Source of the DNA: an uncultured Bacteroidota bacterium
GTDB taxonomy: Bacteria > Bacteroidota > Bacteroidia > AKYH767-A > JABDAW01
DNA length: 64,000 nt
Assembly (NCBI GenBank): GCA_903844645.1
Contig: CAIMUP010000090.1
Coordinates: 1-64,000 of the forward strand
Direction of reading: 5' to 3'
In this document: positions 48,464 through 56,318 of the stretch, piece by piece
How positions within the stretch are numbered: the stretch's first letter is position 1
Layout of the letters: the number at the start of each line of letters is the position of its first letter
The notes under the pieces: model-generated
What the model saw: the letters and a program-made list of their open reading frames with translations, nothing else
Databases searched by the model: none
What the model was told of the DNA's origin: nothing
Position numbers and translations under genes: made by a program

Positions 48464-49183
48464 TTATCCCTCAATGCTTAACTTTGCTGACAAATCGCTT
48501 AATGAATTATTCCCGTTTTGAGAATAAGCATAAACTTCCATATCCTCACCTCTTCCTGTACCTTTTATAGTTGTGTTCTTGCCCTTTGCATTCACCGATT
48601 TGAATCGTACATTACCCATTTTTTTCATTTCAATAATCACCTCCTCATTCACGATGCTCACCTTGGCGTTCATAGATTTCTCCAATATAATAAAGTGCGT
48701 ATGCATGGGGTTATAATTCTTGCCATTGATAACAGTAATAATAATTTCCCCACCCCTTCCACTTTTCCAACTTAATTTAGGCTTCGGAGGCTTTGACTTC
48801 CTACTTTTAAACAGTTTTCTATTACTCAAAAACGAGCTTGCAATATTCGCCACCACATCTTCAATAATATTATAGTTGGCAGCATCATTACTAATCACCT
48901 CTATCTTATTTGCATACGAATGAATCCATTCTTTCCCTTTCGCAACCTTTGCTCTTGTCATCAATACTTTACCTCCATTGATTCGGAGTTTACAGTTTGT
49001 ATTTGCGACTCCTATCGAATCGGCAATGGCAATACCTTCATCATAAAATGTATTATCAATCGCAGGATGTTTAAACAAATCCGAACGCTTACCGTTACTG
49101 ATGCAGGACAACATATAATCCATCAAAGTAATGGGTTTAATAATCCGCGTGAACTTCATACGCTTTACAAGTAAGTACATCAT
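48464..49183 (-). CDS. Hypothetical protein
   Basis: The protein has up to 239 residues. ATGs at codons 1, 2 and 9 are possible starts, and MKFTRIIKPITLMDYMLSC from codon 9 is plausible. There is no good signal peptide. The second half looks beta-rich (GGEIIITVINGKNYNP, NEEVIIEMKKMGNVRF). It includes a short basic Lys/Pro stretch (KSRKSKPPKPKLSWKSGRGG). I do not recognise the family. It is monocistronic, and its upstream gap holds array O. Confidence 0.65.
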   Translation of the reverse strand: MMYLLVKRMKFTRIIKPITLMDYMLSCISNGKRSDLFKHPAIDNTFYDEGIAIADSIGVANTNCKLRINGGKVLMTRAKVAKGKEWIHSYANKIEVISNDAANYNIIEDVVANIASSFLSNRKLFKSRKSKPPKPKLSWKSGRGGEIIITVINGKNYNPMHTHFIILEKSMNAKVSIVNEEVIIEMKKMGNVRFKSVNAKGKNTTIKGTGRGEDMEVYAYSQNGNNSLSDLSAKLSIEG

Positions 49184-49312
49184 TACTTTTCTTTCTATAC
49201 TAAATTAATAAAGGTTCAACACTGGTTTTTCGGTATAAGATTACGGTTTACGATGAAGGATACTAAAAGGTTTCCATACCTATACATGATTCAGCACAGG
49301 GAATACTCCCTT

Positions 49313-49506
49313 AAGATAAATCATATATGAATAATGAAAAGAGTATGTTCGCAGCGGAGAAAAGTATCTTCCCTTCGGAGAAAACTATATTGAATTCTAA
49401 AAAGGTAGCTATCCCTTCCCACCTGCAATATCTAAATTCCTGCCAGCTATGTATAAATTCTTTGGAAAGTATATACTCTTTTCATTATTCATATATGATT
49501 TATCTT
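49313..49506. repeat. Perfect 34-bp inverted repeat around 21-bp periodic DNA (array O, left part)
   Basis: The arms 49313-49346 and 49473-49506 are perfectly complementary over 34 bp (containing catatatgaataatg and its complement), with 126 bp between them. The internal DNA shows a decayed 21-bp period (ggagaaaagtatcttc, ggagaaaactatattg and so on), and the plus strand gives heptads such as AEKSIFP. The distance arm to arm is 160 bp. No transposase or target duplication is seen. Confidence 0.9.
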
Positions 49507-49511
49507 TAGGG

Positions 49512-49735
49512 AGCACTAAATTATCTCTGGGGAGCACTAAATTATCTCTGGGGAGCACTAAATTATCTCTGGGGAGCACTAAATTATCTCTAGGGAGCAC
49601 TAAATTATCTCTGGGGAGCACTAAATTATCTCTGGGAAGCACTAAATAAACTCTAGGGAAAATTGAATTAACTTTAACCAATATAGAATTTCATACAGCC
49701 AATATAGAATTCTATACATCTTATATACAATGCCT
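49512..49735. repeat. 21-bp tandem array O (right part)
   Basis: Seven units with agcactaaattatctctggg start at 49512, 49533, 49554, 49575, 49596, 49617 and 49638, exactly 21 bp apart. A second 21-bp pair follows, ccaatatagaatt at 49678 and 49699. Both parts lie in the 742-bp divergent gap between a hypothetical gene and the DUF5916 gene. The remaining right flank to 49877 holds nothing recognised. Confidence 0.96.
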
Positions 49736-49902
49736 CATTCCTTATATTATACAACCTTTAGTGCATACTAAATTCGTTACATCCGATATTTACATAAGTA
49801 ATGAATGGCAATAACCACGCGGGATTATAGGTGCTTGATTCGGAATAATATATTTAACCAACATTTAACGGCAATACTTTGGCTGGTATCGTATTAGTTC
49901 CC

Positions 49903-49910
49903 TAATTTTG
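49903..49910 (+). promoter_or_regulatory. -7 box TAATTTTG with TTTG 21 bp upstream
   Basis: TTTG at 49878-49881 and TAATTTTG at 49903-49910 are the best -33/-7 spacing for Bacteroidota. The ATG at 49926 is 15 bp downstream. The box overlaps the TTG at 49908 and rejects that start. Confidence 0.7.
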
Positions 49911-49925
49911 CAGCGAAACAAAACT

Positions 49926-52379
49926 ATGAACAGACTACTTTTAATTTTAGCAATACTGGTATCGCTCGGAAATGCTGTAATAGCAGGCGATTCCAACAAA
50001 TCATTAGTCGCAGTAAGGACTCCTACGCCGCCAAAGATAGATGGAATCCTCGATGACGATGTGTGGAAACTGGCGGTAATAGTGGATGATTTCGTAATGA
50101 ATGAGCCTACCGAAGGAATGAAACCGACTTATAAAACAGTGGTACGATTACTGTACGACGACGATGCTATTTATGTATCTGCAATGCTCTACGATGCCCA
50201 TCCCGACAGTATTATGCACGAACTCGGTAATCGCGATGACGATTTGAATGCAGATGAATTCCGGTTGTTATTTGATACCTATAATAAGCATCAAGATGCC
50301 TTCGAATTCGATGTATGGGCGAGCGGTGTGCAGGGTGATTTAAAATTTTCTGATGCTACCTTTAATGCTGTATGGGAAAGTGCGGTAAAAATCGGTACAG
50401 AAGGCTGGAGTTTAGAGATACGAATCCCCTACTCTGCCATACGTTTTCCAAAAACGAATGAACAAACATGGGCAGTCCAATTTACCCGCAGCATAAGGCG
50501 TAGTCGCGAGTTCGATCAGTGGTGTCTTACGCCAAAAGGGAAACCAAACTCGCTGAATTATTGGGGACTTATGACCGGAATAACAGACATCCATGCGCCA
50601 TTGCGATTGTCGCTCACGCCATATATAGCAGCTTATTTGGATAACACACCCGTTTATGATGAGAACAATAAACTTGTTTACACCAAGTCATTTTCTTATG
50701 CCGGAGGAGCAGATATTAAGTACGGAATTGATAGACGCTTTACGCTGGATATGACGCTACTGCCCGATTTCGGACAAGTACAAAGCGATAACAGAGTGAA
50801 AAACCTGACGCCATTTGAGATTGTTTTCGATGAGAACAGACCTTTCTTTAAAGAAGGATTTGATCTCTTCGGGAAGGATGGTGTATTCTATTCGCGACGT
50901 ATTGGCAGAACACCAACACAATACTCCGACGTGGCAAATAACCTCCTACCAGGCGAAACAATATTGAGTAATCCATCGCAAACAAAACTATTAAATGCAA
51001 CCAAAGTTTCCGGTCGGACAGACAAAGGACTTGGCATCGGAATCTTTAATGCCGTAACCGATAATATGTATGCTACGGTGCAAGATAGCATCGGAAATAA
51101 AAGAAGAATATTAACCGAACCGCTGGCAGATTATACCGTCTTTGTTTTAGATCAGAACCTAAAAAATAATGCAGATATTTATTTTATAAATGGTAATACC
51201 CTACGTAGTAAAGGCTTTGGTAACGCCAATGTAAGCGATGTCGGATTCAGTTTTCAGAACAAAAACAATACATTAGAATGGCGCGGCGGCACTACCGTAA
51301 CACAACGATACGGAGCGATAGATAGTCTTCAGAATAAAAGTAAAGACGATGTCGGAAAGCAATATTCTTTACTGTTTCATAAGATAAGCGGCGACTTCAG
51401 ATATAGTGTAAGTACCGAAGCGACTACACCCAATTTTAATAGGAATGATTTAGGAGTGAGCCGATATACTAACTACCAAAGTTACGAAACAACTATAGAA
51501 TATAACAAGTATCAACCCTTCTGGATTTGTAAAGAAACGTACAATAATATTACCATCACAAAAGTAGAAAACTATACTACCCGGCAGCAAGAATCTGTTA
51601 ACATAAATTTCAATTCATTTACTGTGATGAGAAGCCATTGGGGCTGGGATTTCGGTGGTGGATTCACGCCGGTAACAGGTCTTGATTTCTATGAGCCACG
51701 TATCGAAGGAAAATATTATAGAACCCCTAAATATTTATACTTTTATGGCAGCGGAAGTTCACCATACAATAAAAGAATAGCATGTGATTTCGGTGTTCGA
51801 TATAATCAAGCTGCGGCAACCAATTCAAGATCGTTCGGGTATAGTATCTCCCCGATAATAAAGTTTAGTGATAAGCTCTCCTTGCGCCATACCACGGACT
51901 TTGATCACTATAGTAATGATTTAGGCTATGCTAATTTCGATGCCAATGGTAGTAGTATTTTCGGGAGCAGAGATATTTATACCGTGGTCAATACGCTATC
52001 TTTAAAATACATATTTAAGAACGATATGTCGTTAAGTTTAAGAGGGCGACATTACTTATCCAATGGCGTTTATCATCGGTATTATTCTCTGTTGGATGAT
52101 GGTACACTCTTAGCGAATGATGCTTATTCGGGCATGAATAATTTCAACAGCAATTTCTTTAATATTGATCTGGTTTATTCATGGCAATTCTCTCCGGGAA
52201 GTACTATGAATATTGTGTATAAGAATGCTATTGACAGGGAAGATATTGTTGGCAATGCAGACTATTATCCTAACCTGCATAACGCCCTGAATTCGCCACA
52301 AACGAATAGTATTTCAATCAAGGTTTTATATTATCTCGACTATCAGTATCTTCTTAAAAGCAGAACTAAAACTAAGTAA
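49926..52379 (+). CDS. DUF5916 outer membrane protein with CBM9-like N-terminal domain
   Basis: The 817-residue protein begins with a signal peptide (MNRLLLILAILVSLGNAVIA). The N-terminal domain at about 30-200 has the CBM9-like start PPKIDGILDDDVWKLA and the pattern DDDAIYVSAMLYDA. The DUF5916 segment EIVFDENRPFFKEG and FYSRRIGR follow, and then a long beta-strand region that probably forms an outer membrane barrel to the C-terminus. Carbohydrate binding is inferred from the domain only. It converges with the regulator gene 17 bp away. Confidence 0.88.
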   Translation: MNRLLLILAILVSLGNAVIAGDSNKSLVAVRTPTPPKIDGILDDDVWKLAVIVDDFVMNEPTEGMKPTYKTVVRLLYDDDAIYVSAMLYDAHPDSIMHELGNRDDDLNADEFRLLFDTYNKHQDAFEFDVWASGVQGDLKFSDATFNAVWESAVKIGTEGWSLEIRIPYSAIRFPKTNEQTWAVQFTRSIRRSREFDQWCLTPKGKPNSLNYWGLMTGITDIHAPLRLSLTPYIAAYLDNTPVYDENNKLVYTKSFSYAGGADIKYGIDRRFTLDMTLLPDFGQVQSDNRVKNLTPFEIVFDENRPFFKEGFDLFGKDGVFYSRRIGRTPTQYSDVANNLLPGETILSNPSQTKLLNATKVSGRTDKGLGIGIFNAVTDNMYATVQDSIGNKRRILTEPLADYTVFVLDQNLKNNADIYFINGNTLRSKGFGNANVSDVGFSFQNKNNTLEWRGGTTVTQRYGAIDSLQNKSKDDVGKQYSLLFHKISGDFRYSVSTEATTPNFNRNDLGVSRYTNYQSYETTIEYNKYQPFWICKETYNNITITKVENYTTRQQESVNINFNSFTVMRSHWGWDFGGGFTPVTGLDFYEPRIEGKYYRTPKYLYFYGSGSSPYNKRIACDFGVRYNQAAATNSRSFGYSISPIIKFSDKLSLRHTTDFDHYSNDLGYANFDANGSSIFGSRDIYTVVNTLSLKYIFKNDMSLSLRGRHYLSNGVYHRYYSLLDDGTLLANDAYSGMNNFNSNFFNIDLVYSWQFSPGSTMNIVYKNAIDREDIVGNADYYPNLHNALNSPQTNSISIKVLYYLDYQYLLKSRTKTK

Positions 52380-54639: not shown

Positions 54640-54666
54640 ACAATCTATTTGCCCGAACGAAACAGT

Positions 54667-55150
54667 ACTGCTATTGCTATTAAAATAACTGCCATTGCTA
54701 TTATAATAACTACTGTTACTATCATGAATACTGCAATAACTATTGTAATAACTGCAATAACTATTGTAATAACTGCCATTACTATGGTAATAACTGCTAT
54801 CACTATGGTGATAATAGCTTTTACTATCTCTTTCGTCCGTCATCATATATGAAAACGTATAATTGTTATCGTAAGGACACTTATTACATATGAAATCATC
54901 GCCGTCACCATAGAAAATGTCGCCGAAGGTATCGTGATGGTCATATTTACGATGGTGAAAGCAATAATTACTATCCCGATTGTCCGTTATCATATATGAT
55001 GACGGGTAAAAGTGTATGCCTTCGTCATTATTTAATATAGAATGACGCGAATGTTGAATACTAGCAATCGGAGAGCCTATAACTATGCTCTGATCCAGTA
55101 TCCTATTGCCATTATCAAGTATCGTATTCCCATTATCAAGTATACTTTTC
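54667..55150. repeat. Long 21-bp periodic array P (about 23 periods)
   Basis: The left part has actgc-starting units at 54667, 54688, 54709, 54730, 54751, 54772, 54793 and a variant at 54814, based on actgcaataactattgtaat. The period continues through degenerate sequence: gtccgt followed by catcatatatga or tatcatatatga recurs at 54835 and 54982 (147 bp = 7 x 21). It ends with ccattatcaagtat at 55109 and 55130. The minus strand reads heptads (ILDNGNT, YNSYCSY-like) for about 480 bp. It fills the 567-bp convergent gap after mntH. No terminator is seen. Confidence 0.94.
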
Positions 55151-55206
55151 ACAAGGAATAGGTAACAAAATCGCGGAAAACAGCTACTCTCCCTATAAAA
55201 CTGTAT

Positions 55207-55497: not shown

Positions 55498-56318
55498 AAA
55501 TTAAAACTTAAAACTACCCTTGTTTCAAACCGTTCATGGTTATCTAAAACCATGGTTTCAGGCGCAGTATCGGTTTTATGAATGTTCTGCAGTTGCGGCA
55601 AGAAGTTAATGTTGATCAACCACCCACTTCCGTTGATATATAAGGAAGGTCCGGCATAAATAATGGAGTTTTCCCAGCCGTTTGCATCACTAATATCGTT
55701 GAGGTTCTTAGCCTCAAACCCGAACCCGAAACCTTTACTGAAATAGTGCATATAACCAAGGTCAAACTCGATAGGACTCGCCCAGGTAGTGAACACTTTT
55801 CCCTTCGCAGCATCGAGCGAAAGGCGGTATGTATAGACGGCATTGAGGGCGATCAAGTTCTTACCGAATTTTTTATCCATAATAATCTTGGACTCAAACT
55901 CGAACTCGTCAGGCTCTATCTCAATTTCATGGTACAAAGCCACGCCGACCGTGTTCGCAACAGGGTCCGAGAGCTTCCACTTCCATTCATTGCTGATGCC
56001 GATTCCCTTTTCGTTCGTCAGCCCATCAGTAGCCATCGAAGGGTCTCCTTGAGTGTTGTTATCGGTGTTGAAATAGAGGGAAGTCTGCACATTTTTCCCA
56101 AGCCCAATCTCAAATTCAAAGCGATTATCCAAGCCGAAATAGAAGTTAGGTTTATGCCCGTTCCGAGAGGTTGCCCAAAACTCGAAATCCCTTGCGCCAT
56201 AAGGCAATACGTTTGTTTGATAGGTCGTCGCAAACACCCTGTCTTGGGCTTCGCATCGGATGGATAAAAATGAATAGAGAACGACGAAAAAGGCGATGGT
56301 TACACTAATTTTTTTCAT
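55494..56318 (-). CDS. Outer membrane beta-barrel-like hypothetical protein
   Basis: The 274-residue protein has a signal peptide (KKISVTIAFFVVLYSFLSIRC region ending near EAQ). It then has alternating hydrophobic strands (EFEIGLGKNVQTSLYF, VGVALYHEIEIEPDEFEFE, GPSLYINGSGWLININF) and ends in a Phe-Asn-Leu strand, consistent with an outer membrane barrel. I cannot name the family. It is coupled to the cytochrome gene downstream and preceded by an AraC-type regulator. Confidence 0.75.
   Translation of the reverse strand: MKKISVTIAFFVVLYSFLSIRCEAQDRVFATTYQTNVLPYGARDFEFWATSRNGHKPNFYFGLDNRFEFEIGLGKNVQTSLYFNTDNNTQGDPSMATDGLTNEKGIGISNEWKWKLSDPVANTVGVALYHEIEIEPDEFEFESKIIMDKKFGKNLIALNAVYTYRLSLDAAKGKVFTTWASPIEFDLGYMHYFSKGFGFGFEAKNLNDISDANGWENSIIYAGPSLYINGSGWLININFLPQLQNIHKTDTAPETMVLDNHERFETRVVLSFNL

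Follow-up and report, generated by a model that had tools for sequence, protein, structure and literature searches.

An inverted repeat joined to a 21-bp minisatellite at a gene junction, one of many arrays of equal period and differing sequence in a Bacteroidota genus

The tandem array described here, array O, lies in the gap at positions 49184-49907 of the window, by which we mean the whole 64,000-nucleotide stretch of DNA that was analysed, from an uncultured Bacteroidota bacterium. The gap is a divergent intergenic region, bounded by a minus-strand gene for a 239-aa protein and a plus-strand DUF5916/CBM9-like gene. An inverted repeat lies approximately 120 bp upstream of the start of the 239-aa gene and runs into the array. 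The features of the region are as follows.

48464-49183, minus strand: gene for the 239-aa protein, predicted to be a helix bundle plus a fibronectin-III-like domain, of a family confined to this genus in the genomes searched
49306-49346, plus strand: left arm of the inverted repeat, free of mismatches in 49313-49346
49321-49330, no strand: left copy of the palindrome TCATATATGA
49347-49472, plus strand: interior of the inverted repeat, decayed DNA with a 21-bp period
49473-49513, plus strand: right arm of the inverted repeat
49489-49498, no strand: right copy of the palindrome TCATATATGA, 168 bp (8 × 21) from the left copy
49500-49646, plus strand: seven fresh units of TTATCTCTGGGGAGCACTAAA
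49647-49730, plus strand: decayed units in the register of the fresh ones, including the pair at 49678-49718
49879-49910, plus strand: Bacteroidetes-type promoter (TTG...TAATTTTG), about 150 bp past the array and belonging to the DUF5916 gene
49908-52379, plus strand: DUF5916/CBM9-like gene

The original prediction described perfectly paired 34-bp arms, and these are present (49313-49346 and 49473-49506); with one mismatch allowed they are longer than claimed, reaching 41 bp at 98% identity (49306-49346 and 49473-49513) with exactly 126 nt (6 × 21) between them. The perfect inverted repeats in 40 shuffled versions of the gap reached at most 12 bp, and folding of the 208-nt inverted repeat as single-stranded DNA gave a z-score of −9.0. 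The DNA enclosed by the arms is periodic, as had been proposed: its identity at lag 21 was 0.50, compared with 0.26-0.28 at lags 19, 20, 22 and 23, and this value was equalled in none of 5,000 shuffles. The right arm was said to lead into seven fresh units. The units are there, but the arm overlaps them rather than simply abutting, as the first unit begins 14 bases before the arm ends, and the inverted counterpart of these 14 bp lies in the left arm. In its head-to-tail, near-identical units, array O resembles a bacterial minisatellite, or VNTR.

Older and younger units are indeed neighbours in this gap, but the suggestion that the gap collects different units seems the poorer reading. The third 21-bp pair on which it drew exists (90% identity). 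Neighbouring 21-bp rows from 49626 to 49710 match at 14/21, 14/21 and 15/21 positions, changing stepwise in a single register, and because the third pair shares that register through intermediate units, it looks like a drifted portion of one array rather than a member of a collection. When the DNA from 49311 to 49710 is written in rows of 21, T stands first in nearly all rows and A last in most. When the phase of the DNA between the arms was tested, the true phase came second of 21 as is and third when inverted. These ranks are at most suggestive of a register common to the interior and the array.

We surveyed arrays with Tandem Repeats Finder, in 545 kb first and then in 1.18 Mb (approximately 31% of the genome). 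The smaller sample held 165 non-overlapping arrays, 135 of them with a period divisible by 21, and the larger held 282 arrays with such periods (21, 42, 63, 84 and 126 bp), which extrapolates to approximately 914 per genome. Arrays made up 3.7% of the bases in the sampled DNA, and the unit sequence was individual to nearly every array. Noncoding DNA showed an excess of identity at lags 21, 42, 63, 84 and so on (0.342 at lag 21 versus approximately 0.275), whereas coding DNA showed a mere trace of the lag-21 excess. A lag-21 array was found in 76 of 228 gaps, compared with 0-2 gaps for each of lags 19, 20, 22 and 23, and in 2 of 194 coding genes. Around the arrays a weak 21-bp register reached approximately 200 bp further. 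Arrays occurred between genes in all orientations, and we saw no preference for a gap orientation that would point to a promoter or terminator role. Tandem arrays in bacterial gaps are already known; in the literature that we searched we found no report of arrays sharing a period while differing in sequence.

Many arrays have higher-order units of 42 and 63 bp, in which copies two apart were more alike (0.87) than neighbours (0.77). By analogy, such units may resemble satellites that are renewed through local exchange. Mismatches were grouped in patches within copies. The ratio of indels to mismatches was 0.054 in 21-bp arrays, about as in other arrays (0.066), and therefore gives no sign of selection actively keeping phase. 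Units showed a mild pattern of a conserved block and a variable block, with column variation autocorrelated at lag 1 and anticorrelated at lags 8-10. Two candidates for a shared basis were rejected: a motif common to the units was at most weak (EM log-likelihood 496 versus 458-479 in shuffles), and palindromic units were only mildly enriched (mean stem 3.9 versus 3.4).

Counting inverted repeats with arms of at least 18 bp, and mirror repeats as a control, we found that the 235 kb of gaps held 140 inverted repeats, whereas the 834 kb of coding DNA held 2; mirror repeats were absent. An inverted repeat was present in 49 of 142 array gaps (35%) versus 18 of 232 others (8%; P about 2 × 10−10, gap lengths pooled). 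Of these 49 gaps, 43 had an arm that overlapped periodic DNA. Arm lengths in gaps reached approximately 100 bp. Most arms appear to occur in their own gap only, and the inverted repeats of other gaps were unrelated in sequence to the one described here. One gap with a 42-bp array contains a perfect 97-bp inverted repeat (C98 23499-23762). A dispersed REP-like hairpin, CAAGCATCCTGACAGGCAATCGCCCCTTCGCGATTTCCTGTAAGGT, was also seen, often inverted around 21-bp arrays (C1 8876-9014, 23690-23830 and 27075-27501; C3 3501-3842).

The palindrome that is carried by both arms of array O, TCATATATGA, has 15 copies in the 3.84-Mb genome, all within seven clusters (pairs or triplets). The spacings in these clusters are 84, 114, 147, 168 (several times) and 190 bp, which at 10.5 bp per turn correspond to 8.0, 10.9, 14.0, 16.0 and 18.1 turns. 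Its core, CATATATG, occurred 13 times in 545 kb, with 12 of the 13 in such clusters. Four palindrome clusters lie upstream of 239-aa family genes, one of them formed by a longer palindrome with the same core. The longer palindrome GATCCATATATGGATC stands upstream of a 239-aa family gene in three copies exactly 84 bp apart (C104 88935-89122, L015). Two palindrome pairs are located between convergent genes, a setting that fits an operator less readily. Upstream of the gene on contig C135, a 190-bp pair is matched, at almost unchanged positions for both sites, upstream of its 63% identical relative in another species, and the DNA between the paired sites is unconserved across the two species. This conserved pair is a phylogenetic footprint, which is the best evidence of function at these sites. 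A dimeric protein probably binds the palindromes. Three duplicated gaps, approximately 80% alike, each contain a TCATATATGA pair and a 21-bp array, with two 21-nt gaps between copies (window 54640-55170; C13 about 55600-56160, L033; C62, L012:2206-2760).

Array density was 2.5 per 10 kb in this genome and 2.2 and 1.7 per 10 kb in two congeners, compared with 0.3 in the sister genus (two marginal cases) and nearly none in the rest of the order. The array class is confined to the genus among the sampled relatives. Other Bacteroidota have 7- and 14-bp arrays as a modest background. In samples of the sister genus (G003, L102-L105), we noted several short 8-bp arrays with differing units, as though a second lineage kept to a fixed period of its own. 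In a small sample of 55 conserved junctions between genes, arrays were present at four in this genome and at none in relatives. The gaps at these four junctions measured 11, 56, 0 and 166 bp in the relative versus 357, 358, 324 and 1,525 bp in this genome, with the 1,525-bp gap also containing a 239-aa family gene (C13 70212-70961). The absence of arrays and the shorter gaps at the relatives' junctions indicate that the arrays are recent additions specific to the lineage. In the two congeners, the DUF5916 orthologue has a different neighbour and no array in front of it.

The 239-aa family is likewise restricted to this genus among 41 genomes searched. The genome has nine copies besides the one next to array O, and 17 of 20 family copies examined have a strong 21-bp array at most 700 bp upstream. 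We considered this family as the maker of the arrays and rejected it, the prediction being an FN3-type protein. The distribution that the arrays and the family have in common is a single genus-level event and hence no proof of array-making.

Approximately 900 arrays with one step and, in nearly all cases, their own sequences point to a genus-specific process that writes repeats of two helical turns between genes. We propose that copies would arise when DNA synthesis slips or switches template. Switching within one strand would add direct copies of 21 bp, whereas crossing to the opposite strand would add an inverted copy and so generate an inverted repeat joined to an array; old copies would then decay in register while a central stretch is renewed. 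Turnover of direct copies is suggested by the higher-order 42- and 63-bp units and by the two 21-nt gaps between copies of the duplicated sister gaps. Template switching may well be the source of the copies. At array O, the arms would have formed around the TCATATATGA pair, whose spacing of 8 × 21 bp keeps both palindromes on one helical face and which a dimeric protein probably binds. We consider it about evenly balanced whether array O is such a locus of genus-specific minisatellites, made by slippage or template switching, with arms grown around the palindrome pair. The unit length that is common to unrelated sequences is beyond what ordinary slippage fixes, and this counts against slippage; two helical turns are the obvious lead for the 21-bp step.

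In a different account, the ruler of two helical turns is a dedicated enzyme or protein-DNA filament specific to the genus, which would write the 21-bp repeats at junctions or protect them, the arrays being its products or its binding platforms. One period across unrelated sequences, the presence of arrays in one genus only among the sampled genomes, the conserved and variable blocks of the units and the siting of arrays where relatives have a very short gap or none would all fit such a ruler. However, we identified no candidate enzyme, any motif across units is weak at most and indels occur in the arrays without being purged, and we regard this account as unlikely. The same caution applies to a genus-specific machine with a two-helix-turn ruler that makes and renews 21-bp repeats from any intergenic sequence, and whose strand switches give the inverted repeats; this, too, is a doubtful prospect. 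A structured RNA, with the long-stem hairpin serving as a terminator, attenuator or small RNA, would be consistent with the strong predicted fold of the 208 nt (computed for single-stranded DNA) and with how common long stems are in gaps. A divergent gap needs no terminator, however, no Rfam match reached the gathering score and the inverted repeats of other gaps share no sequence with this one, all of which make an RNA element improbable.

The position of the inverted repeat upstream of the 239-aa FN3 gene, its 41-bp arms and 126-bp loop in a divergent gap, and the similar palindrome pairs that precede three other 239-aa family genes in the genome together recall a phase-variable, invertible promoter segment, and invertible promoters are known in Bacteroidetes (PMC10939037, PMC3090145). 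We think inversion quite unlikely here: serine recombinases are absent from all three congeners, the genome has five tyrosine recombinase matches but none on the contig of array O, and the interior has the same orientation in the three duplicated sister-gap copies. Moreover, the sole Bacteroidetes-type promoter found in the gap sits outside the segment; a search of 49306-49513 for promoters of the TAnnTTTG type, and that type only, found none. The original prediction had itself raised the ends of a known insertion sequence or MITE as the finding that would overturn it. The near-perfect, terminal-like inverted repeat of approximately 208 bp overall has that appearance, and in one other gap (C141) TCATATATGA is likewise enclosed in an inverted repeat related to this one. 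Nevertheless, the genome has no second full copy of the arms (the best match elsewhere is a 43-bp partial one), the arms are unmatched in plasmid and viral contig collections, the outer flanks GGGAATA and CACTAAA form no target-site duplication and the right arm terminates within an array unit; a mobile-element origin is accordingly very unlikely. Hardly credible, finally, is translation of the arrays into heptad-repeat peptides (21 bp being seven codons). The main periods are all multiples of 3, several arrays are crossed by open frames, the seven units of array O differ only synonymously in one frame, and an apparent third-position pattern in a sister gap had prompted this coding reading. 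It was rejected by a codon-position test, in which 105 arrays lacked the signature (z = −0.9); in addition, arrays lie mostly outside called genes, and the frame through array O is ended by TAA at 49647.

Bacterial gaps are usually short and streamlined, and here approximately 4% of the sampled genome consists of arrays that are alike in period only. A fixed step in unrelated sequences calls for a ruler, which could be a polymerase, a filament or selection on helical phase. With three array-bearing related species to set against nearly array-free close relatives, the question is open to comparative genomics, and the paired TCATATATGA palindrome offers a concrete candidate binding site.

The closest known systems each share part of this pattern. 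TAACTGA heptamer direct repeats occur between genes in Beggiatoaceae, Cyanobacteria and some Bacteroidetes, with one heptamer sequence across many sets, and relatives of two of the Bacteroidetes have shorter gaps without them (PMC4679880). Like the arrays here, they are mostly intergenic, head-to-tail and lineage-restricted, but there it is the sequence that recurs, whereas the arrays here have only the 21-bp period in common and vary in sequence by locus; the unit of array O is TTATCTCTGGGGAGCACTAAA, so array O is not a TAACTGA repeat. Bacterial VNTRs and minisatellites, exemplified by the intergenic tandem repeats of Planctomycetota (PMC9426551), are similar in their intergenic arrays, slippage-compatible growth and higher-order units, but differ from the single period over approximately 900 arrays of unrelated sequence and the frequent long inverted repeats found here. 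In the Mpi or Tsr systems of Bacteroides, inverted repeats likewise flank a short segment upstream of genes, whereas here a serine invertase is absent, no promoter was found inside and the arms occur at this locus only. Intergenic palindromes, clustered in some cases, are also typical of REP/BIME elements and MITEs, but the arms of array O have no dispersed full copies, and the REP-like hairpin of this genome lies in other gaps. The iterons of plasmid origins are, like the arrays here, direct repeats of about two helical turns; they have one sequence, one initiator and one origin, whereas the 21-bp arrays occupy hundreds of loci with differing sequences.
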